Part shown: positions 2,121-15,463 of the stretch, piece after piece | Position numbering within the stretch: the first letter of the stretch is position 1 | How the letters are laid out: every line of letters begins with the position of its first letter | Origin: a virus | Length of the DNA stretch: 23,310 nucleotides | Virus record (IMG/VR): IMGVR_UViG_3300020601_000079 | Location: 1-23,310 of that record | Reading direction: 5' to 3' (one strand) | Position numbers and translations under genes: made by a program | The notes under the pieces: generated by a model | Told to the model about the DNA's origin: nothing | Database searches by the model: none | The model's input: only the letters and a program-made list of their open reading frames with translations

Positions 2121-3378
2121 TATACCAGACAAGCTAGTCCCTGTCTTTGAGGGTAAGGCTAGATACCGTGGTGCCTATGGTGGCCGTGGTTCTGGCAAGA
2201 CTCGCACCTTCGCTCTAATGACGGCTCTAAGGGGTTACCAGGAAGGCAAGGCGGGCAGGGAGGGCATAATACTCTGCGGTCGTGAGCATCTAAACTCTCT
2301 CAGCGAATCCTCTCTCGAGGAGATCAAGGCCGCTATCGGTTCCGTGCAGTTCCTAGCTGACTACTACGAGGTCGGTGAGCGGTACATCCGCAGCAAAGAC
2401 GGAAGGATCAATTACGCATTCGCCGGTCTCCGCACTAACGTAGACTCCCTTAAATCTAAGTCACGCCTACTGTTAGCCTGGGTGGATGAGGCAGAGAGTG
2501 TAAGTGAGACAGCGTGGCAGAAGCTCATACCGTCGGTCCGAGAGCACGACTCAGAGATTTGGGTGACATGGAACCCAGAGAGCAAGAACTCAGCAACTCA
2601 CAAGCGATTCCGTGAAGACCCGCCTAATGATGCCAAGATCGCTGAGATCCAGTGGTCAGACAATCCGTGGTTCCCTGATGTACTAGAGCAGGCAAGGCTA
2701 GAGGACCTAGAGAAGCGGCCAGACATCTATCAGCACGTCTGGGAGGGTGACTTCCGTATACACGTTGAGGGCAGCTATTACGCCATAGAGATGCTACAGG
2801 CCAAGACTGACGGCAAGATCTGCGCTGTGCCCTATGACAAGTCTGCTGCGGTGGTGACTTCTTGGGACCTTGGTATGGCTGACACGACCTCTATCTGGTT
2901 CGCTCAGTACATCGGCAAAGAGATCCGCATCATTGACTACTACGAGAACTCTGGCTGCGCTCTAGACCACTATGTGCAGATGCTCCAGGGTAAAGGCTAC
3001 ACCTACGATCAGCACATCCTACCGCACGATGTCCGGGTCAAGGAGCTAGGCACCGGCAAGTCTAGGCTAGAGGTATTGCAGTCTCTAGGTCTGAACAACG
3101 TCATAGTCGCCCCTATGCTTGGCATCGAGGACGGCATACAGCAGGTGCGCTCAATGATCCCGCAGTGTTGGTTCGATGAGGAACGCTGCGAGCGTGGCAT
3201 TGACGCTCTAAGGCAGTACCGCAGGGATTGGGATGAGAACGGCAAGCACTGGCGTGGCAGGCCTCTACACGATTGGACCTCTCACGCATCTGACTCATTC
3301 CGTTATCTAGCAGTGGGTTACAAACCTACACACGTCTGGGGCGGTCCTATCCGTCGCAACATCCGAGGGATCGCTTAG
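2101..3378 (+). CDS. terL: Terminase large subunit (packaging ATPase-nuclease)
   Basis: A 425-residue motor protein that pumps DNA through the portal and cuts concatemers. The ATPase domain shows Walker A GGRGSGKT at residues 27-34, Walker B LLLAWVDE at 123-130 with catalytic E130, and the coupling motif VTWNP at 155-159. The RNase H-like nuclease domain shows SWDLGMADTTS with D256, LPHD with D310, and HASDSFRY with D398, which are the likely metal ligands. The length is close to the usual 420-500. The pattern fits the Terminase_3/PBSX-like group. Its start overlaps the small subunit gene by 20 nt. All key residues appear intact. Confidence 0.96.
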   Translation: MTAATIDIPDKLVPVFEGKARYRGAYGGRGSGKTRTFALMTALRGYQEGKAGREGIILCGREHLNSLSESSLEEIKAAIGSVQFLADYYEVGERYIRSKDGRINYAFAGLRTNVDSLKSKSRLLLAWVDEAESVSETAWQKLIPSVREHDSEIWVTWNPESKNSATHKRFREDPPNDAKIAEIQWSDNPWFPDVLEQARLEDLEKRPDIYQHVWEGDFRIHVEGSYYAIEMLQAKTDGKICAVPYDKSAAVVTSWDLGMADTTSIWFAQYIGKEIRIIDYYENSGCALDHYVQMLQGKGYTYDQHILPHDVRVKELGTGKSRLEVLQSLGLNNVIVAPMLGIEDGIQQVRSMIPQCWFDEERCERGIDALRQYRRDWDENGKHWRGRPLHDWTSHASDSFRYLAVGYKPTHVWGGPIRRNIRGIA

Positions 3379-3382
3379 TCTG

Positions 3383-3392
3383 TGTTATACTC
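3383..3392 (+). promoter_or_regulatory. Candidate extended -10 promoter element
   Basis: The 40-bp gap after the large terminase contains TGTTATACTC, which matches an extended -10 (TGnTATAAT) with one mismatch. No -35 hexamer is seen at the right spacing. It would place a transcript start about 20 bases before the start codon of the 3419 gene. The same ten bases occur again at 6193-6202. Sequence match only; it could be chance. Confidence 0.3.
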
Positions 3393-3418
3393 ATGTCATC
3401 GGTACATGAGGACATCAC

Positions 3419-5560
3419 ATGGCAGACCCCAGAGATCTAGAGAAAGCTTTGTACGAAAGGCTTCGCAATAGATACCCGGCAGCAATACCTCAACAGATGA
3501 TTCCAACAGATATGTCTCTAAGGGACAGGATGTCGTCTGGAATATTAAACATGATGGGTGAGAATACTGATCCTGTCGCAAGGCGCAGAGCGCAAGGCTT
3601 AATGAGCGCAATGGACTTTGGCCCTGGTGTTGTTGTTGGCGCTGTAGATCTTCTAGATGCTCAGAACGCATACGAGCAAGGCAATAAGGCTGAAGCTGCT
3701 ATTGGAGCAGGAACAGGTCTACTGTCCATAGTTCCGGGCGGTAGAGCGGTGGCTCAAGGTGCTGAGACTGTTGGCCGCTCAATCATGAATAAAGCAAAGC
3801 CTGCTATAAACTTAACCGATCTGCCGAGAGCTAACATAGTTCAGACAGTGCCAAAGGAAGTAAAAACCGCCGAGCGAGTAGGCACAACTGGTGCTTATCG
3901 TGGCGCCCCTAGAAATGTAGATAGCGAAGGCAAGTTAAGGACTATGAGAAAGAATCTTAGGGATTCTTTATCCAGGGGCACTATTGGTCGTGATTGGTAC
4001 GAGAGAAGCTCTCGCACAGCCTCTGAGTTAACTGGCGGTCGTGAGGGTTATAAGGATTTATACTCTGGAACCGTTGCCCTGACTTCAGCAGGTGCGTCTG
4101 TTCCTGCTAACCAGACATTCGCTGTGCGTGGCTATAATCAAGCTATCACAGGCAATGAGATAAACACCGGCAGATTCCCAACCAATGCAGCAGCGGGAGT
4201 TCAGGGCATGTTATCTGGTCAGCCTACTGAGTTTGGACCGAAACGTGGGCCATTCTATGAGGCTTTGAACGTGCCTCCTGGTGAGTCTGCATCTCGCCCT
4301 ACTAATGATCTGTGGATGGCTAGAGCGTTCGATTACAGGACCCCAGAAGGTGAAACCTGGAGTGAGGGTTTAGGTGAGGCTCAGCACCGATTCATGGACA
4401 AGGAAATTAATAACCTGGTTGATTGGGCTAACGACAACAAGGTAGGCGGTTTTGATAACTGGACTCCAGAGAAGGTCCAAGCATCTATCTGGGTAGACAC
4501 TAAAGCGCGATCTGAAGGCACGAGCGTAGACGCTGCTGCTTACGATTTCTCTGATAACCTGCGCCCATTGACAGCTAACATCAATGTAGAGTCCGAGCCT
4601 GCTCGTGGTCTTATGCACTTAGCGGGATCACAAGACAACCCAATGTATGCTGAACTGCTACAAGAGGGCCAGAGACGCATTCTAAGCAACGATCAAGGCC
4701 AAGACATGGTTGCGCTCGCTGCCGGTGGATTAACTCGCCAGACGGCCCCTGGTTATGGATATTACAAGGGTGTCTCAGCTCCTGCCGATACCATTAGGGT
4801 GATGGCCGCTCCATCTACCGGAAGCAATCAGATTGATCCTGCATCTAGAGGTCTTCTTGAGGGAATAGCTGCTACTCAGGGCCTGCTTAGAGGACAAGAG
4901 TCAGTAGGCTATAACTTCGTCCGTCCAGGCGGCAAGCTAACAGAGCGCAACGCTGCTATGGTTGATATAGGTAAACCGGCAGAGCAGGCGCAAATGCTTT
5001 CCGTAGGAGCAAGGTTAGACGAAGAGTTTGGTGGAGCAATCATACCCACCAACACTGACTACGGTATGAATTACCTGGTAGTGGATGACCTATCAGATTG
5101 GGCAAGGTCGAATGGAATAGATCCAGAGAATGCAGATGCTGTGGCTAAAGGTTGGCAGGCTAAACTTCGGCAGATAACTAAAGCTGAGCTAGACGCCAAA
5201 CCAGAGTTCGGCGTAAACAGCGGTGATCTAGTAGGCTCTTTTGAGGCATTTAAGCCAAGCGAGTACCTGCCCGCAATAGAGCAATCAGGTGCTACAGGCC
5301 TTCTCAGTAGAGCCGCCCAGGATGCAGCCCCTGCTTTAGAGCAGCTAGATGAGGCGCTGATTAAGGAGTACCCAGATATAGGCGTCAGGAGTCAGATTCT
5401 GATGACGACTCGGAATGCACTAGCCGAAGGTGGCATCGCTCGTGTTCGTGAGCTTGTGGATCAGGGTATACTACCTGTGGTGGCTCTTGCTGTAATTGGA
5501 ACCGCTGCCGTGACTCAGCAACGATCTCGTCGAGACGGCGGTGGAACCGACGGAGTTTAG
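3419..5560 (+). CDS. Large putative virion (internal/ejected) protein, unknown family
   Basis: A 713-residue protein. The ATG at 3419 has ATGAGGA about eight bases upstream. Residues about 60-125 form a Gly/Ala-rich, weakly hydrophobic segment (MDFGPGVVVGAVDLLDAQ and the following GAGTGLLSIVPGG) of a kind seen near the start of large internal virion proteins. Residues about 165-375 form a compact, charged, Trp-rich domain with GPKRGPFYEAL (273-283) and TNDLWMARAF (295-304). Similar blocks occur in hypothetical proteins of environmental phages, but I cannot name a function. A short hydrophobic stretch lies near the C-terminus (about 685-697), before a basic RSRRDGGG tail. Its last 176 nt run opposite to a probable minus-strand gene. 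Virion role is inferred from position and composition. Confidence 0.7.
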   Translation: MADPRDLEKALYERLRNRYPAAIPQQMIPTDMSLRDRMSSGILNMMGENTDPVARRRAQGLMSAMDFGPGVVVGAVDLLDAQNAYEQGNKAEAAIGAGTGLLSIVPGGRAVAQGAETVGRSIMNKAKPAINLTDLPRANIVQTVPKEVKTAERVGTTGAYRGAPRNVDSEGKLRTMRKNLRDSLSRGTIGRDWYERSSRTASELTGGREGYKDLYSGTVALTSAGASVPANQTFAVRGYNQAITGNEINTGRFPTNAAAGVQGMLSGQPTEFGPKRGPFYEALNVPPGESASRPTNDLWMARAFDYRTPEGETWSEGLGEAQHRFMDKEINNLVDWANDNKVGGFDNWTPEKVQASIWVDTKARSEGTSVDAAAYDFSDNLRPLTANINVESEPARGLMHLAGSQDNPMYAELLQEGQRRILSNDQGQDMVALAAGGLTRQTAPGYGYYKGVSAPADTIRVMAAPSTGSNQIDPASRGLLEGIAATQGLLRGQESVGYNFVRPGGKLTERNAAMVDIGKPAEQAQMLSVGARLDEEFGGAIIPTNTDYGMNYLVVDDLSDWARSNGIDPENADAVAKGWQAKLRQITKAELDAKPEFGVNSGDLVGSFEAFKPSEYLPAIEQSGATGLLSRAAQDAAPALEQLDEALIKEYPDIGVRSQILMTTRNALAEGGIARVRELVDQGILPVVALAVIGTAAVTQQRSRRDGGGTDGV

Positions 5561-5594
5561 CCTGGAATAATTCGTCGTGCTCTGGTGTGATCAT
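5385..5594 (-). CDS. Probable minus-strand small gene antisense to the 3' end of the 3419 gene
   Basis: A 69-residue ORF on the minus strand, starting MITPEHDELFQAKLRRFHRR. I chose the ATG at 5594 because AAAGGGAG (plus-strand 5602-5609) sits seven bases before it, one of the best ribosome sites in the window. The frame is open further up to a TTG at 5624, without a comparable site. A near-consensus sigma-70 promoter lies upstream at 5651-5679. The protein has a basic helical first half and a Ser/Glu/Asp-rich tail (SESSSESDS), with no membrane segment. I do not recognise the family. It lies fully opposite the last 176 nt of the large gene plus 34 nt of the gap. If transcribed, its RNA would also pair with the mRNA of that gene. 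It could be a small regulator or an antisense RNA; function unknown. Confidence 0.55.
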   Translation of the reverse strand: MITPEHDELFQAKLRRFHRRLDEIVAESRQRFQLQQEPPQVVYPDPQAHEHERCHLRLVHSESSSESDS

Positions 5595-5601
5595 GATGTG
5601 G

Positions 5602-5609
5602 CTCCCTTT
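5602..5609 (-). promoter_or_regulatory. Strong ribosome binding site for the minus-strand gene
   Basis: Read on the minus strand, this is AAAGGGAG, seven bases before the ATG at 5594. It fixes the start of the antisense gene and is hard to explain otherwise, because it lies in the non-coding gap 5561-5666. Confidence 0.55.
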
Positions 5610-5650
5610 AGCTGTATGCCGCAAAGTAGGAAATAAATCGCAAGAGCGTG

Positions 5651-5679
5651 ATTATAGGACATAGAAATGGCAATCACAA
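5651..5679 (-). promoter_or_regulatory. Minus-strand sigma-70-type promoter
   Basis: On the minus strand, TTGTGA (plus 5674-5679) and a perfect TATAAT (plus 5651-5656) are separated by exactly 17 bases. The -10 matches consensus 6/6 and the -35 4/6. The expected start of transcription is near 5644, giving a leader of about 50 nt to the ATG at 5594. The -35 lies inside the first codons of the adaptor gene. This is the best promoter-like sequence I found in the window. Confidence 0.55.
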
Positions 5680-6287
5680 CTTACACAGAGCTGAAGTCTA
5701 CAATAGCTGACTTCCTCAACCGGGACGACCTGACGGCTGTTATCCCTACGTTCATCTCTCTGGCAGAGGCTCAGATGGAACGTGAGGTGCGTCACTACAA
5801 GATGCAGAAGCGATCTGAAGGTCAGATAGACACCAGGTACTCACAGTTACCGGCAGACTTCCTCGAGCCTGTTCGCTTTCACCTTGATGACGGCAGATCT
5901 ACCCGGCTAGAGCTTGTTACCCTGGATGACATGCTGCAATTCCGCATGGAGAGCAACGACGCCCAGGGCAAGCCTAGATACTACGCTATGTCAGGCGAGG
6001 CCATTGAGGTCTTCCCTACGCCAGACACTACCTACAGCGGCGAGCTACTGTACTACGCAGAGCTAGAGCCACTATCAGACTCTAACGCCTCTAACTGGCT
6101 GCTAGAGATGTCACCAGATGCCTACCTGTACGGGGCGCTTATGCAGTCTGCACCGTACCTGAAGGATGACGCCCGAATGGCGGTCTGGAGTATGTTATAC
6201 TCTGGCGCTGTAGCAGGAACTAATTTGCAGAGCGATAAAGCCAAGTCAGGCGGCTCTGGACTACGACTTAAGATCAGGAGCTATTAG
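5667..6287 (+). CDS. Phage head-tail adaptor protein (SU10 adaptor-like)
   Basis: A 206-residue protein that would dock on the portal and connect it to the tail. The N-terminus, MAITTYTELKSTIADFLNR followed by IPTFISLAEAQMEREVR, and the SQLPADFLEPVRFHLD block (about residues 59-74) match adaptor proteins of phiEco32/SU10-type podoviruses. A PDAYLYGALMQSAPYL helix (about 151-166) is also typical. AGGA lies seven bases before the ATG. The TAG stop is directly followed by the ATG of the next gene. The 106-bp region before it holds the minus-strand promoter and no other plus-strand gene. Confidence 0.82.
   Translation: MAITTYTELKSTIADFLNRDDLTAVIPTFISLAEAQMEREVRHYKMQKRSEGQIDTRYSQLPADFLEPVRFHLDDGRSTRLELVTLDDMLQFRMESNDAQGKPRYYAMSGEAIEVFPTPDTTYSGELLYYAELEPLSDSNASNWLLEMSPDAYLYGALMQSAPYLKDDARMAVWSMLYSGAVAGTNLQSDKAKSGGSGLRLKIRSY
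6193..6202 (+). promoter_or_regulatory. Second copy of the candidate extended -10 element
   Basis: TGTTATACTC, identical to 3383-3392, lies inside the adaptor gene about 85 bases before the next gene start. No -35 is visible. A related TGGTATACT occurs at 12668-12676. Weak evidence. Confidence 0.2.
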
Positions 6288-6671
6288 ATGAGCTTTACTA
6301 ACGCATTTGAAACAGATGTCCTCTCGTGGGGCTTAACAGCAGACTCAGTTACACGCCCTACAGCGTGGTACATCGGCCTGTTTACATCGGACCCTACTGA
6401 CACTGGCGCTGCCGGTACAGAGGTCACAGGCGGCTCATACGCTCGCACAGCGGCTACCTTCACTGTTACAGGTGACACGGCTAGCAACAGCGGTGCGGTA
6501 GAGTTCCCTGCTGCTACTGCGGATTGGGGCACAGTGAGCCACATTGGCGTATTCACGGCCTCTAGCGGCGGCACTATGCTAGTCCATGCGGTCCTCACGA
6601 CTGCCAAGGCTATCGCCACAGGGGACGTTTTCCGCATCCCTACTGGTGATCTGGACATTACTCTAGACTAA
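6288..6671 (+). CDS. Tail fibre-like structural protein (Gp80-like)
   Basis: A 127-residue beta-rich protein. Key signs are the RPTAWYIGLFTSDPTDTG stretch (about residues 23-40), TEVTGGSYART (about 44-54), FPAATADWGTVSHIGVF (about 73-89), a GGTMLVHAVL strand, and a closing PTGDLDITLD. This pattern is that of a small protein commonly annotated as phage tail fibre protein. It starts directly after the adaptor stop and shares one base with the next gene (TAATG at 6669-6673), so the genes are translated as a block. Its exact place in the virion is not shown by the sequence. Confidence 0.72.
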   Translation: MSFTNAFETDVLSWGLTADSVTRPTAWYIGLFTSDPTDTGAAGTEVTGGSYARTAATFTVTGDTASNSGAVEFPAATADWGTVSHIGVFTASSGGTMLVHAVLTTAKAIATGDVFRIPTGDLDITLD

Positions 6672-7279
6672 TGGCGCTGAGAGCCGGTTACGGCACTGGT
6701 CCATACAACGTAGCAAAGTATGGCTATCCGCAGGTATATGAGGCATCCGTAGCAGACAGCTCGGCAGCCTCTGTTACCGTGTCTGGCGCGTACACCAAGC
6801 TATCAAGCGTATCGGTCAATGTAACCTCTGGTGCGAGTAATCCCAGGTTAGTCAAGCGCCGGGTAGGCTACGGAACTGGACCTTACAGCGAGGCCCGCTA
6901 CGGTTACCCTGAGATCTGGGAAGGCGCATCTGCTGTCTCTGTGACCTCAAGTGTTACCCAAGCTGACTACGAGCGCATAAAGAATGCAGTAGTAGCAGAT
7001 GCCTCAGCGGCCTCTACAGCAATGATTGGGGTCAGGGTAAGGCTAGGTAATGTAGCAGACACGACATCTGCCACAGTAGACGCTCAAGGCTTCGGGTCCA
7101 TAGTGGGCGAGGCAGCAGATAGCGTTACGGCTTCAGTAGCAATAAACTATGTTAGAATTAGACCATTCTCTGCTAGTGATAGTGCCGGTTCAGACATTGG
7201 CACGTTTGCTAGGTACAAATGGATAGAGCAAATTAATGCGTCCGAAACATGGACGGAATCTGATTACCGAGGTGACTAA
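6671..7279 (+). CDS. Putative virion protein with duplicated GYGTGPY motif
   Basis: A 202-residue Ser/Ala/Val/Thr-rich protein of probable beta structure. The segment [15 protein letters not shown] (residues 6-20) returns as [15 protein letters not shown] (66-80), exactly 60 residues later, so the N-terminal 85 residues look like an internal duplication. The rest contains repeated (V)ADxSAAS-type strands, such as [11 protein letters not shown] and [11 protein letters not shown]. The Trp-rich C-terminal end ([19 protein letters not shown]) may be an attachment or assembly segment. I do not recognise a named family. Its place between fibre genes, in a one-base TAATG overlap with the previous one, suggests a head or tail decoration protein. 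Confidence 0.6.
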
Positions 7280-7281
7280 CG

Positions 7282-7947
7282 ATGGCTGATACAACCACCA
7301 CAACCTATGGCTTAACTAAACCCGAGGTCGGTGCATCTGACGACACCTGGGGTACTAAGCTCAATACTGACCTAGATCTGATCGATGATCTGCTAGACGG
7401 AACCACGGCCATCGCGCCTAACCTGTCTACGCTGACTATTGCCGGTACTGCGGTAACAACTACAGCGGCAGAGATCAACCTTCTGGACGGTCTCACTGCT
7501 GATGCAGCAGAGCTAAACATTTTAGACGGAGCCACAGTTACAACGGCAGAGCTGAATATACTTGATGGTGTTACCGCTGACGCTACAGAGCTTAACCTGT
7601 TAGACGGAGTCACAGCTCTGGTCACAGCGACTAGCACTGACACGTTCACTAACAAAACCATCCGAAGCACTGTATATGCTTTGTCAGGCACAGCCTTTGA
7701 CGCTACCAACGGCGCAGTACAGACAAAGACTCTCTCTGGTAACACGACCTTCACAGACTCTCTAAGCTCTGGTGATGCCATTATCCTTCACCTCGAAGGC
7801 GGTGCTACATACACAGCAACTTGGCCTACAATCACTTGGGTTACTTCTGGTGGCAACGTAGCACCTACGCTCACTGCCAAAGACACATTGGTATTCTGGA
7901 AGGTATCAACAACACTGTATGGAGCCTATGTTGGGAGCTTTGTCTAA
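7282..7947 (+). CDS. Tail fibre protein with tandem AELNILDG repeats
   Basis: A 221-residue fibre-like protein. The N-terminus contains [20 protein letters not shown] (residues 9-28), a motif shared by many phage fibre proteins and probably used for attachment to the tail. Residues about 61-112 hold four copies of a 13-residue unit of the form AE(I/L)N(I/L)LDG followed by a threonine-rich link, a type common in trimeric fibre shafts. The C-terminal 100 residues are beta-rich ([23 protein letters not shown]) and resemble small head domains of fibres. The stop overlaps the ATG of the next gene (TAATG, 7945-7949). Host attachment role is likely. Confidence 0.78.
7459..7617 (+). repeat. Four 13-residue (39-nt) repeats in the tail fibre
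   Basis: The glutamates of the four AE(I/L)N motifs sit at residues 64, 77, 90 and 103, exactly 13 apart. The nucleotide copies differ mostly at third positions, so the repeat is kept at the protein level. Confidence 0.75.
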
Positions 7948-9329
7948 TGACTATCTTAAGCACAACATTGATTGCAGCGGCAGGTAATGCTGCGGGCGGG
8001 GGTAATTATTGGGTTAATGAAATAATTCCTCCAGACACCCAAACTTATATAACAAGGGTTGCAGTTAATCCTAGTAAAGAAACAATTATACTAGGGTCTA
8101 ATCGAGTCGATGCTGCAAATCGAGTAATGTATGAGTTTGATTATGATGGCAATATCTTAAGGCAAGGACAACATACCCCTGATTCTGGTTCTGCCACATA
8201 TTCGTATTCTTTAGCTAGAGGGATGAATGACCAATATCTTGACTCGCATGCCGATAACAACACACATAAAATTACTAGGTATGATAGCGCCACTTCTGGG
8301 AGCATCCAAAGGTCACAAGCAGTTAAGTATAATGGTTACGGCACTTATTACAATATTTATTATCATGCACCAAGAGGGACTATTTACTCTGACGACGATT
8401 ATTGTTTAATCCCGTATGGAGGTTATACGAATCCATATTACACAGGTTACGGATACCTTTTTCAGCCTTATTTTGGTGTTGGTCGTTTTACCTATACATC
8501 AGCAGGAACAGTAGCATATACAAATGATTATATGTGGGAGCTTTCCATAGATGCGTACTCAGATAGCAGATCTATACAGGTATCTGAGGCATCTAGCACT
8601 GGTTGGCACATAATCAGAGGTTGGCATTATTCTGGTAGAACTTATTGGCATTCTTTCAGGGGCTCTCAAAGTGGAACAGAGGCAGTATCACGGTGGAGTC
8701 AGATCCCAAGCAATACTGATGGTGTTGCAATACTTGTGGACAGTGAAGACAAGTTTTTTGATGTCATTGGCCTAACCTCTGTAAAAGTATTTAGAAACAC
8801 GTCTATCGCCCTGCCTAACGGTTATTATCCAAATATTTATTGGAATGTCGTGCCTAGTTTCTCAAGCGGCAACTGCTGTGGAGCGGATTTAGACTCGTCA
8901 GATAATCTGTACATAATGTGGAATGAGGGCTATATAGCTAAATTTAATTCTAGTATGGTTCTTGAGTGGGTAGTAAGGGTGCAGGATACTCAATCTAGCG
9001 TTGAATCAAACGCCTCCTCGTTCGGAAGCTTTGGTATAAAAACAATAGATGGAGAAGATGTAATATTTGCATCTCTTACTCAGTCTTCCAAGTCGGGGCA
9101 GTCTACAAAAAATATAAACTTGTTTAGATTGCCGATTAATCTAGATGAGTACACTGGAACTTATGACCACTACTCAATAACTTCAGCAGGCTCGATATCC
9201 GTGACTAGTACAGGCGTAAGTCCTCAGGCTACTAGTAACGGAAATGCCGTCGGCGCAAATACTACTAACTTTAATGCTTTTAGTAATATAACAACTACTA
9301 GCTCAACTATAACTAATACAGAAATATAG
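7947..9329 (+). CDS. Putative receptor-binding/tail spike-like protein
   Basis: A 460-residue protein. The frame is open further upstream, but the ATG at 7947 overlaps the previous stop (TAATG) and gives a sensible [19 protein letters not shown] start, so the upstream 42 codons are taken as non-coding. The body is rich in Tyr, Ser, Gly and Asn, with recurring short strand-turn patterns (YEFDYDGNIL, ADLDSSDNLYIMWNEG, VSRWSQIPSN). These resemble beta-propeller or beta-helix blades. The C-terminal 50 residues are almost only Ser/Thr/Asn/Gly. Position after a fibre gene and before a tail assembly chaperone-like gene points to host recognition. Base composition is clearly more AT-rich than in the genes before and after. 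No named family recognised. Confidence 0.65.
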   Translation: MTILSTTLIAAAGNAAGGGNYWVNEIIPPDTQTYITRVAVNPSKETIILGSNRVDAANRVMYEFDYDGNILRQGQHTPDSGSATYSYSLARGMNDQYLDSHADNNTHKITRYDSATSGSIQRSQAVKYNGYGTYYNIYYHAPRGTIYSDDDYCLIPYGGYTNPYYTGYGYLFQPYFGVGRFTYTSAGTVAYTNDYMWELSIDAYSDSRSIQVSEASSTGWHIIRGWHYSGRTYWHSFRGSQSGTEAVSRWSQIPSNTDGVAILVDSEDKFFDVIGLTSVKVFRNTSIALPNGYYPNIYWNVVPSFSSGNCCGADLDSSDNLYIMWNEGYIAKFNSSMVLEWVVRVQDTQSSVESNASSFGSFGIKTIDGEDVIFASLTQSSKSGQSTKNINLFRLPINLDEYTGTYDHYSITSAGSISVTSTGVSPQATSNGNAVGANTTNFNAFSNITTTSSTITNTEI

Positions 9330-9336
9330 GTTTTAT

Positions 9337-9804
9337 ATGTATATAAAAAGCGATGGAGCTCAAATAATTAAATACCCATACACTATTTCTGACATGAAAA
9401 AAGATCATTCAGATGTTTCGTTTCCGAAAAATATTACAGAGGAAATGCTTGCAGATTATGGTGTTAGCCGTGTCTTTATTCCTGAGCCTGATGAACATAA
9501 TCAAGAAACTCACCGTGTGACATTAAATGATGCTCCTATATATGAAAACAATAGGTGGGTTCTTGGTTGGACTGTTGTTGCAAAAACAACAGAAGAGATT
9601 GATGAAGAGCTTGAATTCAAAAAGTCTAATATTCGTCATGCAAGAGATGAACTGCTATCAAAATCAGACTGGACTCAGCTTCCAGATGCTCAGTTAACAG
9701 AAACACAAAAAACAGCTTGGACTAAATACAGGCAAGAGCTGCGAGATGTGCCAGAGCAAGAGGGATTCCCTAACTCATTTGAGTGGCCTTCTGTTGGTAA
9801 TTAG
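9337..9804 (+). CDS. Phage tail assembly chaperone-like protein
   Basis: A 155-residue protein. The C-terminal part carries a pattern typical of the phage tail assembly chaperone family (PF16778-like) found beside fibre genes: an R.ELLSKSDWTQLPDAQ-like stretch (about residues 103-119), then AWTKYRQELRDVPEQEGFP (about 127-145) and a closing FEWP. The first half shows YPYTISDMKKDHSDVSFP (about 13-30), also usual for this group. Such proteins help fibres fold or attach. ATAGG lies six bases before the ATG, and only seven bases separate it from the previous gene. It lies in the AT-rich island and ends inside the start of the sulfotransferase-like gene. Confidence 0.75.
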   Translation: MYIKSDGAQIIKYPYTISDMKKDHSDVSFPKNITEEMLADYGVSRVFIPEPDEHNQETHRVTLNDAPIYENNRWVLGWTVVAKTTEEIDEELEFKKSNIRHARDELLSKSDWTQLPDAQLTETQKTAWTKYRQELRDVPEQEGFPNSFEWPSVGN

Positions 9805-10426
9805 TAGTCAGCACGAGTTTGTATTTATTAGAGTGCCAAAAACAGCATCTACTACTTGCGCGTTCTATTTTTTAGATTCTGGTTTAGTATCTGATGAAGA
9901 TAGATACTCTAATAAAACTGCTAAACGTATAAAGTCGATAATACGAAAAACTGATTCAAAAGAAGGTCATAGATGTGTTGAAGATATAGAATTTACAAAA
10001 TATTCCCACACTAAGCACAGAGATATAGTAATAGATTACCCAGAGGTTAAAGATTATATGTCTATAGCCACTGTTCGCAATCCGATAGATAGAGTTATAT
10101 CTGCTGCCATAATGCTTTGCCAGAAAAATATTACAGCTAATAAACTTAATGAATACATAGAGTTTATATTAACTGGCAAGCATATATTTTCAGTGGCGCA
10201 ACACGAGTTTGTTTCAAAAGATACAATATTGTGGCCGATTGAAAATGTACAAGAGAAAATTGAAAAATTCATATTAGATCGTGGTGGGAATATGAGAGAA
10301 CAATGGCACTGTCGTAAAAATAACTCATGCGACTACACAAATTTGGTTAGTATCGACCTAAAGAAGCAGATAGAAGCTAAATATAGTAAGGATTTTGAGT
10401 TATGGGAAAAAGCCTTGACTCAGTAG
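9794..10426 (+). CDS. Sulfotransferase-like protein
   Basis: A 210-residue protein with two motifs of PAPS-dependent sulfotransferases. One is the 5'-phosphosulfate loop FIRVPKTASTT near the N-terminus. The other is the 3'-phosphate motif ATVRNPIDRVISAA near residue 80. Enzymes of this type move a sulfate group from PAPS to a sugar or other hydroxyl; the acceptor here is unknown. I place the start at TTG 9794, which gives MVISSQHEFVFIRVPK, the spacing usual for the family. The ATG at 9746 is in frame, but its extra 16 residues are only the out-of-frame reading of the conserved chaperone C-terminus. The gene is AT-rich and sits among tail-fibre genes. Catalytic activity is plausible but unproven. 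Possible targets are host surface glycans or the virion itself (inference). Confidence 0.72.
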   Translation: MVISSQHEFVFIRVPKTASTTCAFYFLDSGLVSDEDRYSNKTAKRIKSIIRKTDSKEGHRCVEDIEFTKYSHTKHRDIVIDYPEVKDYMSIATVRNPIDRVISAAIMLCQKNITANKLNEYIEFILTGKHIFSVAQHEFVSKDTILWPIENVQEKIEKFILDRGGNMREQWHCRKNNSCDYTNLVSIDLKKQIEAKYSKDFELWEKALTQ

Positions 10427-12939: not shown

Positions 12940-13437
12940 ATGTCAGGTGGAAAAGGCGGCAGCCAAACAACACAGGTAGAGATACCCAAGTATATTGAGG
13001 ATGCCTCTCGAGCCAACATCGCTCAGGGCAAAGAGATCAGCCAAATCGGCTACACACCTTACTACGGTCCAGACGTTGCAGCGTTCACGCCTATGCAGGC
13101 AGCAGCCATGCAGTCAGCGGCTAACTTTGGATCAGCCTTTGGTCTAATGCCTCAGATGGACGCAATGGCCGGTATGCCTGAAGCACAGACCTTTGAGGGT
13201 GGTGTCCGAGGCTACTCATCTGCACCTCTCTATGAGCAAGCAGTAGCAGAGCTTGCAGCACGTCGTCCAGGTCAGGCAGCACTGATCAACAAGCAGTTTA
13301 TAGATCCCTACGGCACTGGCACAGATGTTACTCGCATTCCCGGTTTTAATGACCAAATGGGAATGATAGATGAGTACGGTGGCTACGGCGGCGGCTACGG
13401 TGGTGGCGATTTCGCCAACGGTCGACGAATCAACTAG
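12940..13437 (+). CDS. Hypothetical virion-associated protein
   Basis: A 165-residue protein starting one base after the previous stop. The first 60 residues (QTTQVEIPKYIEDASRANI and EISQIGYTPYYGPDVAAFTP) are a block I associate with hypothetical proteins in podovirus structural regions. The middle is Ala/Met/Gln-rich and helical; the last 25 residues are Gly/Tyr repeats (YGGYGGGYGGGDF). The next gene follows 10 bases later, and its ribosome site (AGGAG, 13436-13440) overlaps this stop. Position within the block of Ala/Gln-rich proteins suggests a virion component or assembly helper. I do not recognise a function. Confidence 0.6.
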   Translation: MSGGKGGSQTTQVEIPKYIEDASRANIAQGKEISQIGYTPYYGPDVAAFTPMQAAAMQSAANFGSAFGLMPQMDAMAGMPEAQTFEGGVRGYSSAPLYEQAVAELAARRPGQAALINKQFIDPYGTGTDVTRIPGFNDQMGMIDEYGGYGGGYGGGDFANGRRIN

Positions 13438-13447
13438 GAGCACCACT

Positions 13448-15463
13448 ATGGCGGGTTCAGCAGGCGGCATACAAGCAGCAGCTCAAAAAAGGGCGCAGCA
13501 AGGCGTTAATCCTACGTTGGTTCAGGCTAATCAACCTCAGCAGTTTACGCAGTTTGCAGGCGCAGGTGATCCCATTGTGGATGGCAACGTGGCGCAGACG
13601 ATAGCTAATACTGTAGGCAATGCTGCACGTCAAACAGCGGCGGGAATGAGTTTTCAGCCACTAAATGTTCAAGCTGCCCAGATTGGCTCGCAAGGCTATA
13701 ACGCAGCTCAGGCAGCAGCTCAGCAAGCGGGATCTCAGGGTTACACAGCAGGCGGTTATACAGCGGCAGATGCGGCAGCTCAACAGGCTTCTGCTCAGGG
13801 CTACGATGCTACAGCAGCATCTGCTCAAGGCTATACTGCTCAACAAGCAGCAGCAGAAAGAGCGGCGGCAGAAAGAGCAGCGGCTCAAGGCTACAGTGCT
13901 GAAAGGGCGGCAGCAGAAAGAGCTACAGCTCAGGGATATGAAGCTCAGAAAGCAGCAGCAGAGAGAGCATCTGCTGAAGGCTATGGCGCAGAGCGTATTG
14001 CAGGTGTTGGTCCTGTTACTGCAGATCGAGTTACCGCAGGTCAGCTAGCAGGCACCAGTTTAGACCCTTACTTTAACCCTTACGAATCTCAGGTAGTACA
14101 GCAGTCGCTATCAGACCTCGAGCGTCAGAGGTTGATGCAGCAGAATGTCACTGGGGCGCAAGCTCAGGCAGCGGGCGCATTCGGTGGTTCACGTCAAGGC
14201 ATTGCAGAGGCAGAGACTAATCGAGCATTTGCAGAGCAGGCAGCTCGCACAGCGGCAGGACTACGTCAAGCAGGCTTCACACAGGCTCAGCAAGCAGCGC
14301 AGCAGGACATCGCTACACGCATGCAGGCAGGATTAGCTAATCAAGCTACAGGCTTACAGGCGGCTACTACAACAGCTACCCTTGGTCAGCAAGCGCAAAT
14401 GGCCAATCAGGCAGCAGCGAATCAGGCAGCTCAATTCGGTGCTCAAGCTAGAAACGTGGCGGGCTTGCAAAACGCGCAACTGGGTACTCAAACTAATCTT
14501 GCTAATATGGCAGCGGCTAACCAAGCTGCTCAATTCGGCGCACAGGCTCAAAATGTAGCAGCATTACAGAATGCCCAATTAGGTACACAGGCTAACTTAG
14601 CGAATCAAGCAGCGGCTAACCAGGCTGCTCAGTTTGGATCGCAAGCACAGAATGTTGCTGCACTGCAAAACGCTCAGTTAGGCACTCAAGCAAACTTACA
14701 GAACGCTCAGCTAGGAACTCAAACTAGCCTTGCTAATGTTGCAGCTCAGAATCAAGCGGCACAGTTTGGTGCTCAGGCTCAGAACGTCGCAGCTTTACAA
14801 AACGCAGCAGCTCAGAACCAAGCAGCCCAATTCGGTGCTCAAGCGCAAAATGTTGCGGGTCTCCAGAATGCTCAGCTCGGAACTCAAGCTGCACTCCAGA
14901 ACGCAGCACAGCAGAATGCAGCGGCTCAGTTTGGTGCTCAAGCAGGTAATGTAGCAGCTCAGTTCGGCGCACAGGCGGGCAACGTAGCAGCACTACAGAA
15001 TGCTCAGCTAGGCACACAGACAAATATAGCCAACATGGGCGCACTGAACCAAGCAGGACAGTTCGGAGCAGCGGCAGCTAATCAGGCTGCTCAGGCTAAC
15101 CAAGCAGCAATGATGCAGGCCCAGACAGCTAACCAAAGCGCAGGACTCTCTGCTAATCAGCAGCGTCTAGGGGCAGCAGGTCAGCTAGCTAACATCGGCA
15201 ACCTCGGTTTCGGCATGGTTCGTGACGTACAGTCTGATATAGCTCAGGCAGGTCTACAGCAGCAAGCAGCACAGCAGGCTCTGATAGACGCAGCACGAGG
15301 ACAGTACGCAGGATACACTGGCGCACCAACTCAGGCTCTACAGACTCAGCTAGGCGCGTTCGGTGGCTCTCAGACAGGCGCTCAGACGCAGACCTCTAGC
15401 AAGCAGCCAGGACTGTTCGACTACTTACAGCTCGGCGCGTCAGTATTCCGACCCGGAGGCTAA
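13448..15463 (+). CDS. Ala/Gln-rich repeat protein with 11-residue repeats, putative internal virion protein
   Basis: A 671-residue protein. The open frame reaches back to 13370, but AGGAG at 13436-13440 points to ATG 13448. Layout: residues 1-80 low-complexity N-terminus; 81-185 repeats built on (S/A)QGY...AAAERA whose lengths are multiples of five; about 190-300 a more ordinary helical region (SLDPYFNPYESQVV, AFGGSRQGIAEAETNRAF); 301-564 a run of 24 consecutive 11-residue units; 565-671 a helical end with GNLGFGMVRDVQSDI and FDYLQLGASVF. Almost no charged residues occur in the 11-mer region. It would form a very long helix or helical rod. A role inside the capsid or during DNA ejection is inferred from its neighbours. 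Confidence 0.68.
   Translation: MAGSAGGIQAAAQKRAQQGVNPTLVQANQPQQFTQFAGAGDPIVDGNVAQTIANTVGNAARQTAAGMSFQPLNVQAAQIGSQGYNAAQAAAQQAGSQGYTAGGYTAADAAAQQASAQGYDATAASAQGYTAQQAAAERAAAERAAAQGYSAERAAAERATAQGYEAQKAAAERASAEGYGAERIAGVGPVTADRVTAGQLAGTSLDPYFNPYESQVVQQSLSDLERQRLMQQNVTGAQAQAAGAFGGSRQGIAEAETNRAFAEQAARTAAGLRQAGFTQAQQAAQQDIATRMQAGLANQATGLQAATTTATLGQQAQMANQAAANQAAQFGAQARNVAGLQNAQLGTQTNLANMAAANQAAQFGAQAQNVAALQNAQLGTQANLANQAAANQAAQFGSQAQNVAALQNAQLGTQANLQNAQLGTQTSLANVAAQNQAAQFGAQAQNVAALQNAAAQNQAAQFGAQAQNVAGLQNAQLGTQAALQNAAQQNAAAQFGAQAGNVAAQFGAQAGNVAALQNAQLGTQTNIANMGALNQAGQFGAAAANQAAQANQAAMMQAQTANQSAGLSANQQRLGAAGQLANIGNLGFGMVRDVQSDIAQAGLQQQAAQQALIDAARGQYAGYTGAPTQALQTQLGAFGGSQTGAQTQTSSKQPGLFDYLQLGASVFRPGG
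13688..14002 (+). repeat. Tandem QGY/AAAERA repeats with 15-nt length steps
   Basis: From residue 81 the protein is divided by (S/A)(Q/E)GY motifs. The spacings between successive motifs are 15, 20, 10, 20, 15 and 15 residues, all multiples of five. The filler is mostly AAAERA, AAAQQA and similar, so the region probably grew and shrank in five-codon steps. Confidence 0.7.
14348..15139 (+). repeat. 24 consecutive 11-residue (33-nt) repeats
   Basis: Residues 301-564 can be cut without a gap into 24 units of 11. They are of three recurring kinds: AANQAAQFGAQ, AQNVAALQNAQ and LGTQANLANQA. They usually follow in that order to make a 33-residue superunit, but single units are skipped or doubled without breaking the register. 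Nucleotide copies differ at many silent positions. Confidence 0.85.

Follow-up and report, generated by a model that had tools for sequence, protein, structure and literature searches.

The window analysed here is the whole 23,310-nt stretch of a virus record of 23 kb. Family searches of the Pfam/PHROG type identified SU10-type head genes within it (terminase, SU10 adaptor, portal and major head protein). The recognisable genes are all carried by the plus strand, apart from one that starts in the 106-bp gap (5561-5666) between a large late-region gene, P0002 (3419..5560, plus), and the SU10-type adaptor gene (5667..6287, plus; Pfam PF24175, 5.3e-35). In this gap and its margin, a minus-strand promoter of the sigma70 type (5651..5679) is formed by TTGTGA at 5679-5674, a 17-nt spacer and TATAAT at 5656-5651, the -35 box sitting within the first codons of the adaptor gene. 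Transcription is expected to start near 5644 on the minus strand. A Shine-Dalgarno sequence, AAAGGGAG (5602..5609, minus), stands 7 nt before the ATG (5594..5592) of a 69-aa ORF, P0001 (5385..5594, minus), of which 176 nt are antisense to the end of P0002. Elsewhere on the plus strand, a sulfotransferase-family protein (PF03567, 1.1e-9) is encoded among the late genes at 9746-10426, and a long protein that is rich in A/Q/N and contains internal repeats (QLGTQ...NVAALQNAQ) at 13370-15463.

The promoter, ribosome site, start codon and 69-codon ORF were all recovered where an initial annotation had placed them, and its description of a lone minus-strand gene in a window otherwise read from one strand agrees with the gene content. 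That annotation had also called the gene antisense to a large virion gene. The antisense overlap stands; a virion role for P0002 is not established, as P0002 has no match in Pfam, PHROG or PDB and the longer among its homologues match the polyvalent-protein domain LPD23. A promoter scan returned TTGTGA-17-TATAAT as the sole promoter-like match in 3000-8000. Because shuffled sequence gives an expected 3.8 such matches per same 5 kb and antisense ORFs of at least 60 aa are many within the window, these signals by themselves are not beyond chance.

Structure prediction gives P0001 as mostly alpha-helical, with a long helix at residues 4-35 (mean pLDDT above 90 over residues 11-30) and a loose tail. 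P0001 has no match in Pfam, PHROG or PDB, and family and structure searches with the small proteins likewise gave none.

Fold and distribution of the leader

The initial annotation had noted a leader of about 50 nt between promoter and ORF. The leader is indeed present, and it holds what that annotation did not see, a structured RNA with a SAM-II core that could sequester the Shine-Dalgarno sequence. This candidate compact SAM-II-like riboswitch occupies 5602..5643 on the minus strand and is matched at 5602-5647 by R1, a covariance model that we built from these leaders only. The 5' strand of P1, UGC (5640..5642), pairs with GCA at 5617-5619. It is followed by L1, GAUUUA (5634..5639), which is invariant in 24 sequences and equivalent to the third strand of SAM-II/V (GAUUUG in the SAM_alpha consensus), and by the P2 5' strand UUUCCU (5628..5633), an anti-Shine-Dalgarno that pairs with AGGGAG at 5607-5602, a segment overlapped by the Shine-Dalgarno site. 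The P2b 5' strand, GCG (5620..5622), pairs with C5614, G5612 and C5611, and AGCUAAA (5607..5613), again invariant in 24 leaders, is equivalent to the SAM-contacting GCUAAA of SAM-II/V (PMC6061858, PMC11508383). Since P1 opens before the P2 loop and closes inside it, and the last helix holds the Shine-Dalgarno sequence, the arrangement is that of an H-type pseudoknot. From the usual -10 spacing, the first base of P1 probably lies at about +1.

Covariation supports these helices. In the set of 24 distinct leaders, pairing holds in 89.9% of P1/P2b cells, against 76.8% in shuffles, and 27 cells are doubly changed, against 10.3 in shuffles, none of which reached the observed value; sliding the P1/P2b partners collapses the pairing signal. 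P1 occurs as GUGC/GCAC, ACGC/GCGU, AUGC/GCAU, AGGU/ACCU and CGU/ACG, the P2b pair 5620/5614 is G-C, C-G or U-A in relatives, and a Shine-Dalgarno helix of 3-6 bp with nnCCU is possible in every leader. Thermodynamic folding of single leaders gave no significant z-score, as expected of a folding program that cannot model pseudoknots. Compared with L004, L005 and distant leaders, the core has an additional U in the window, L006 and L008 (UACUUUGC; window 5622-5625, minus).

A 17-base piece of the leader matched 27 viral loci, and about 24 distinct leader sequences were found, in front of small proteins of two or more mutually unrelated families. In most loci, though not all, the layout is TATAAT, about 8-11 nt, GATTTA, nnCC, TACTTGC, a variable stretch, AGCTAAA, AGGAG and ATG. 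The window's own family A (MITPEHDELF...) and family B (MPYKDVTYDNG...FPSANHR...) share the leader and show no relation by profile comparison; further small ORFs follow it as well. TATAAT is retained in all family-A relatives, and family-B contigs have TATAAT, TACAAT or TATACT at the equivalent position. In all checked contigs that carry a P0002 homologue, the element faces the 3' end of that gene on the opposite strand, in convergent orientation; this is so both where the adaptor gene comes next on the plus strand and where a different gene does. Phage isolates gave no match to P0001, P0002 or a family-B protein, and a DNA search with this region gave none either.

In bacteria the element is rare, with strong matches in three genomes of one order; 1-2 of the 390 genomes drawn per search carry it there, a frequency so low that a bacterial regulon cannot be used to identify the ligand. 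Several genome matches, among them L250, L255, L266 and L274 in Pelagibacteraceae, lack a Shine-Dalgarno sequence or start codon and are likely due to chance, as are most results of a loose motif scan (a TACTT core without GC) among the matches listed.

Several further copies were observed. At the end of a gammaproteobacterial contig (L349:60-430), two copies lie about 260 bp apart, each followed by a ribosome site and start codon of its own; the first gene encodes a homologue of P0001, and the second runs off the contig. L347 and L348, from the same MAG, have two separate copies among bacterial-looking genes; the proteins encoded behind them are paralogues of about 53 aa (MRYRYR...). At L346:8935-9174, element and small gene are antisense to a remnant resembling the P0002 C-terminus, near a transposase-like ORF, and the locus looks like a prophage remnant. 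In L336:4106-4480 and L239, where the context is phage-like and unrelated, the element has P1 AGGU/ACCU and a 6-bp Shine-Dalgarno helix and is followed by the gene of a 111-aa protein whose start resembles a signal peptide. In L033, L035 and L038, further phages of this group, the corresponding gap immediately upstream of the adaptor gene has other minus-strand small ORFs with strong ribosome sites and without this leader (MKLFPVINTDAEIPEELSIP..., MNNKVTLVRGKHCVTLSK...).

Kinship with SAM-II and SAM-V

Rfam left the leader unmatched at permissive thresholds in the window, in seven related contigs and in a short leader fragment. The phage leaders did not reach the gathering cut-off of SAM_alpha (RF00521) and gave no match to SAM_V (RF01826). 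Weak glutamine and guanidine matches near 5700-5790 were discarded; they fall within the adaptor gene, on the plus strand.

We ran R1 over 36 bacterial loci (110 kb) that Rfam models marked as SAM-V or SAM-II. With E up to 10, all 10 matches fell on the right strand at an annotated SAM-II/SAM-V or at a position in tandem with one. The best two (L298, 2.8e-7; L299, 6.4e-7) lie about 10 nt upstream of the Rfam SAM-V before metY in Pelagibacterales; three weaker matches lie at the same tandem position and five on annotated SAM-II/SAM-V, with none elsewhere. The 442-aa protein behind SAM-V in L298 and L299 is a putative MetY, identified by its sequence, and metY is known to be preceded by SAM-V in Pelagibacter (PMC2704228). 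In Pelagibacterales metY leaders, SAM-V thus appears to be preceded, at a distance of about 10-13 nt, by a compact SAM-II-like element, clear in L298 and L299 and weak in L301-L303; the Rfam gathering cut-off does not report it (L298). The published tandem is a SAM-II/SAM-V pair at bhmT whose linker resembles a terminator (PMC2704228, PMC11508383).

This metY element is the closest match to the phage leader. It reads GCC-GAUUUG-UUCCUA-UUGCG-GGC-UUACAGCUAAAGAGGAA (R1 E 2.8e-7) and has, across L298-L303, a short P1, a short L3 and UUCCU/AGGAA pairing; it differs in a core that is one nucleotide shorter and in standing in tandem with SAM-V before metY. The SAM_alpha consensus, CGUGGU-GAUUUG...CCGG-CUUGC-A-gCCACG-UUAAAcAAgU-C-GCUAAAgAGG, has every core block in common with the phage leader, GC-GAUUUA-UCC-UA-CUUGC-G-GCAUA-C-AGCUAAA-CAGG, in the same alignment. 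Like SAM-II (RF00521), the leader is an H-type pseudoknot with covariation in P1 and P2, and the two share the core GAUUU[G/A], [C]UUGC-N and N'-(A)GCUAAA with a CC/GG helix, R1 matching annotated SAM_alpha weakly. They differ in dimensions: P1 is 6 bp in SAM-II and 2-4 bp in the phage leader, and L3 is about 10 nt and A-rich in SAM-II and 1-2 nt in the phage leader. SAM-V (RF01826) is likewise a compact translational pseudoknot at the Shine-Dalgarno sequence, with a major-groove triplex that includes SAM, and shares the UUG and CUAAA-AAGGAG letters with the phage leaders; it has other helix lengths and a P3 helix (PMC6061858).

The SAM-V pocket is built by U8-U10, U19-U20, U47 and A48-A50 (PMC6061858), and SAM-II contacts its ligand through U10, U11, A20, U21, U22, U46, A47 and A49 (PMC11508383). 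With positions mapped between the leaders and SAM-II/SAM-V by our own alignment of core blocks, the SAM-contact letters, among them UU of L1, UU of P2 and U-A-A-A of the tail, are invariant in the 24 leaders except at position 20, which is C as in the alphaproteobacterial SAM_alpha consensus. By sequence model the leader is homologous to SAM-II, and it is best read as a compact relative of that class with SAM as its presumptive ligand. We do not call it a member of RF00521, because it falls below the Rfam cut-off and its P1 and L3 dimensions are unusual.

Gene context differs between the two. SAM-II precedes methionine or SAM genes; the phage leaders precede small phage proteins without known family, and the homologous Pelagibacterales copies precede metY together with SAM-V. 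As the genes behind the phage leaders are not recognisable as sulfur or methionine genes, context lends no independent support to SAM as the phage ligand. With a P1 of 2-4 bp in some leaders and an L3 of 1-2 nt, the phage fold may bind SAM weakly or bind another ligand. An RNA of SAM-II lineage could therefore have changed its ligand in phages, to SAH, another adenosyl compound or none, or have become a protein-bound translational operator. The short P1 and L3, the unrecognised genes and a core (UAC-UUGC) one nucleotide longer than the Pelagibacterales UA-UUGC are all in keeping with such a change. However, the loop positions that match known SAM contacts are all invariant, the C before UUGC occurs in the alphaproteobacterial SAM-II consensus too, and autoregulation by a protein is hard to reconcile with one RNA common to unrelated proteins. 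We regard a changed ligand or a protein-bound operator as rather unlikely.

Selection on the overprinted frame

The 69-aa ORF is encoded in seven viral contigs, two of them near-identical and five with about 85% DNA identity. Identity in the gap 5561-5666 is 95-100% in these relatives and about 84-86% in the flanking genes. We compared silent sites in the 57 codons of the plus gene that form the overlap with those in the rest of that gene. Four-fold sites of P0002 were variable at 5 of 26 positions in the overlap and at 214 of 286 elsewhere (Fisher 2.7e-8), and the amino acids of the plus protein are no more conserved in the overlap than elsewhere and, if anything, less so. Within the overlap, variation is highest at plus position 2, the third codon position of the minus frame (12 vs 6 and 10); outside it, plus position 2 is variable at 54 sites, against 102 and 453 for the other positions. 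This is the pattern of a minus frame under protein selection, rather than of selection on an RNA.

An independent homologue points the same way. A gammaproteobacterial contig encodes a standalone relative of P0001 (MINKKDHPELYAAKLRRLDRTMKKMIAERRRNFKL; 45% over 38 aa, E 3e-10 in a single comparison) with its own leader element and TATAAT in front. The locus thus shows both marks of an overprinted gene: silent-site change is suppressed in the frame that it overlaps, and there is an independent homologue. The two comparisons that the initial annotation had proposed, a search for the 69-residue protein in relatives and a comparison of silent sites across 5385-5560 in both frames, have therefore come out in favour of the gene, and its proposal of a promoter, ribosome site and protein product is borne out by the conservation of both signals as well. 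We conclude that the minus-strand gene is real and its protein frame under selection, a conclusion strongly supported by conservation, which is the proof.

The initial annotation had also allowed for a role as antisense RNA. Antisense RNA or transcriptional interference might mainly lower expression of P0002, with the ORF incidental, and the tail-to-tail overlap with P0002 homologues is kept across divergent contigs. Against this, the minus ORF is under amino-acid-frame selection with its ribosome site and start conserved, and bacterial contigs carry a standalone element and gene with no P0002 homologue detected there. We consider this explanation very improbable, and a purely antisense-RNA role is not supported, since what is under selection is the amino-acid frame together with the structure of the leader; for the same reason the conservation can be explained without an antisense effect on the late gene, even if one could occur as a side effect.

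There is still less to recommend the conserved gap as a DNA operator or a plus-strand promoter or terminator for the adaptor gene. The element does often lie just upstream of that gene, but L338, L339, L343 and the bacterial contigs have a gene other than the adaptor next to it, and a minus-sense small ORF still follows; R1 is moreover strand-specific, with matches on the coding strand of metY and SAM_alpha, and no terminator was found in the gap. That a chance ORF lies in a recently recombined and hence identical stretch, as the near-identity of the gap among family-A relatives might suggest, can be set aside as having almost no probability: plus-strand amino acids in the overlap differ as much as elsewhere or more where silent sites do not, which rules out a recombined patch, the codon-position results contradict it too, and distant homologues with other proteins retain the same leader.

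A proposed SAM-responsive switch for accessory genes

Taken together, these results make it likely that the locus combines a host-type sigma70 promoter, a compact SAM-II-like translational OFF switch and an overprinted small accessory gene. The riboswitch would start at about the first transcribed base, and the small gene would be overprinted antisense on the 3' end of P0002. When S-adenosylmethionine is plentiful, the nascent leader would fold into the H-type pseudoknot, formed by P1 and the loop-tail helix P2b/P2, in which UUCCU would pair with the Shine-Dalgarno AGGGA and turn translation off. As SAM falls, the loop strand would leave the groove, the Shine-Dalgarno sequence would open and the protein would be made. 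That high SAM closes the Shine-Dalgarno sequence is proposed by analogy with translational SAM-II and SAM-V; in SAM-V, the ligand has been proposed to close a short helix over it (PMC6061858). We infer SAM as the ligand, the OFF direction and a SAM-gated, moron-like accessory role for a protein acting on the host.

With promoters of host type that stand opposite the late operon, the small genes may be expressed independently of late transcription, in the manner of moron genes. Our guess is that P0001 is a host-directed accessory or counter-defence factor, not a late structural protein. Because a common input precedes unrelated proteins, what is retained at this place seems to be the SAM signal rather than a particular protein.

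Phage riboswitches are rare, and marine examples are mostly glutamine riboswitches (PMC9004378). Those of the Melnitz and Mosig phages resemble the present case in being carried by marine phages (PMC9004378); they belong to another RNA class with another ligand and are associated with a tmRNA gene rather than with an overprinted small gene. A SAM riboswitch in a phage was not found in the open-access literature among the matches listed, which does not prove its absence; if the present reading is true, this would be the first described in phages, as far as the literature was searched, and its SAM-II architecture would be unusually small. With 45 nt and an L3 that is close to absent, the SAM-II-like pseudoknot would also serve as a useful minimal test of ligand binding by this fold, and its occurrence ahead of SAM-V at metY points to a tandem not yet annotated in one of the ocean's most abundant bacterial groups.

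On balance, we lean towards a marine phage lineage that keeps a minimal SAM-II-class riboswitch (~45 nt) as a fixed input before interchangeable small proteins, tail-to-tail with P0002, and that turns an accessory protein on when host SAM is depleted. Such a locus would offer a route to accessory genes in which unrelated small proteins come under one regulatory input at one place. Restriction-modification, other methylation-based defences and phage SAM-degrading enzymes all depend on the methyl-donor pool. If confirmed, the switch would mean that a virus reads the methyl-donor level of its host to switch on a small protein, linking infection to the methyl-donor pool.
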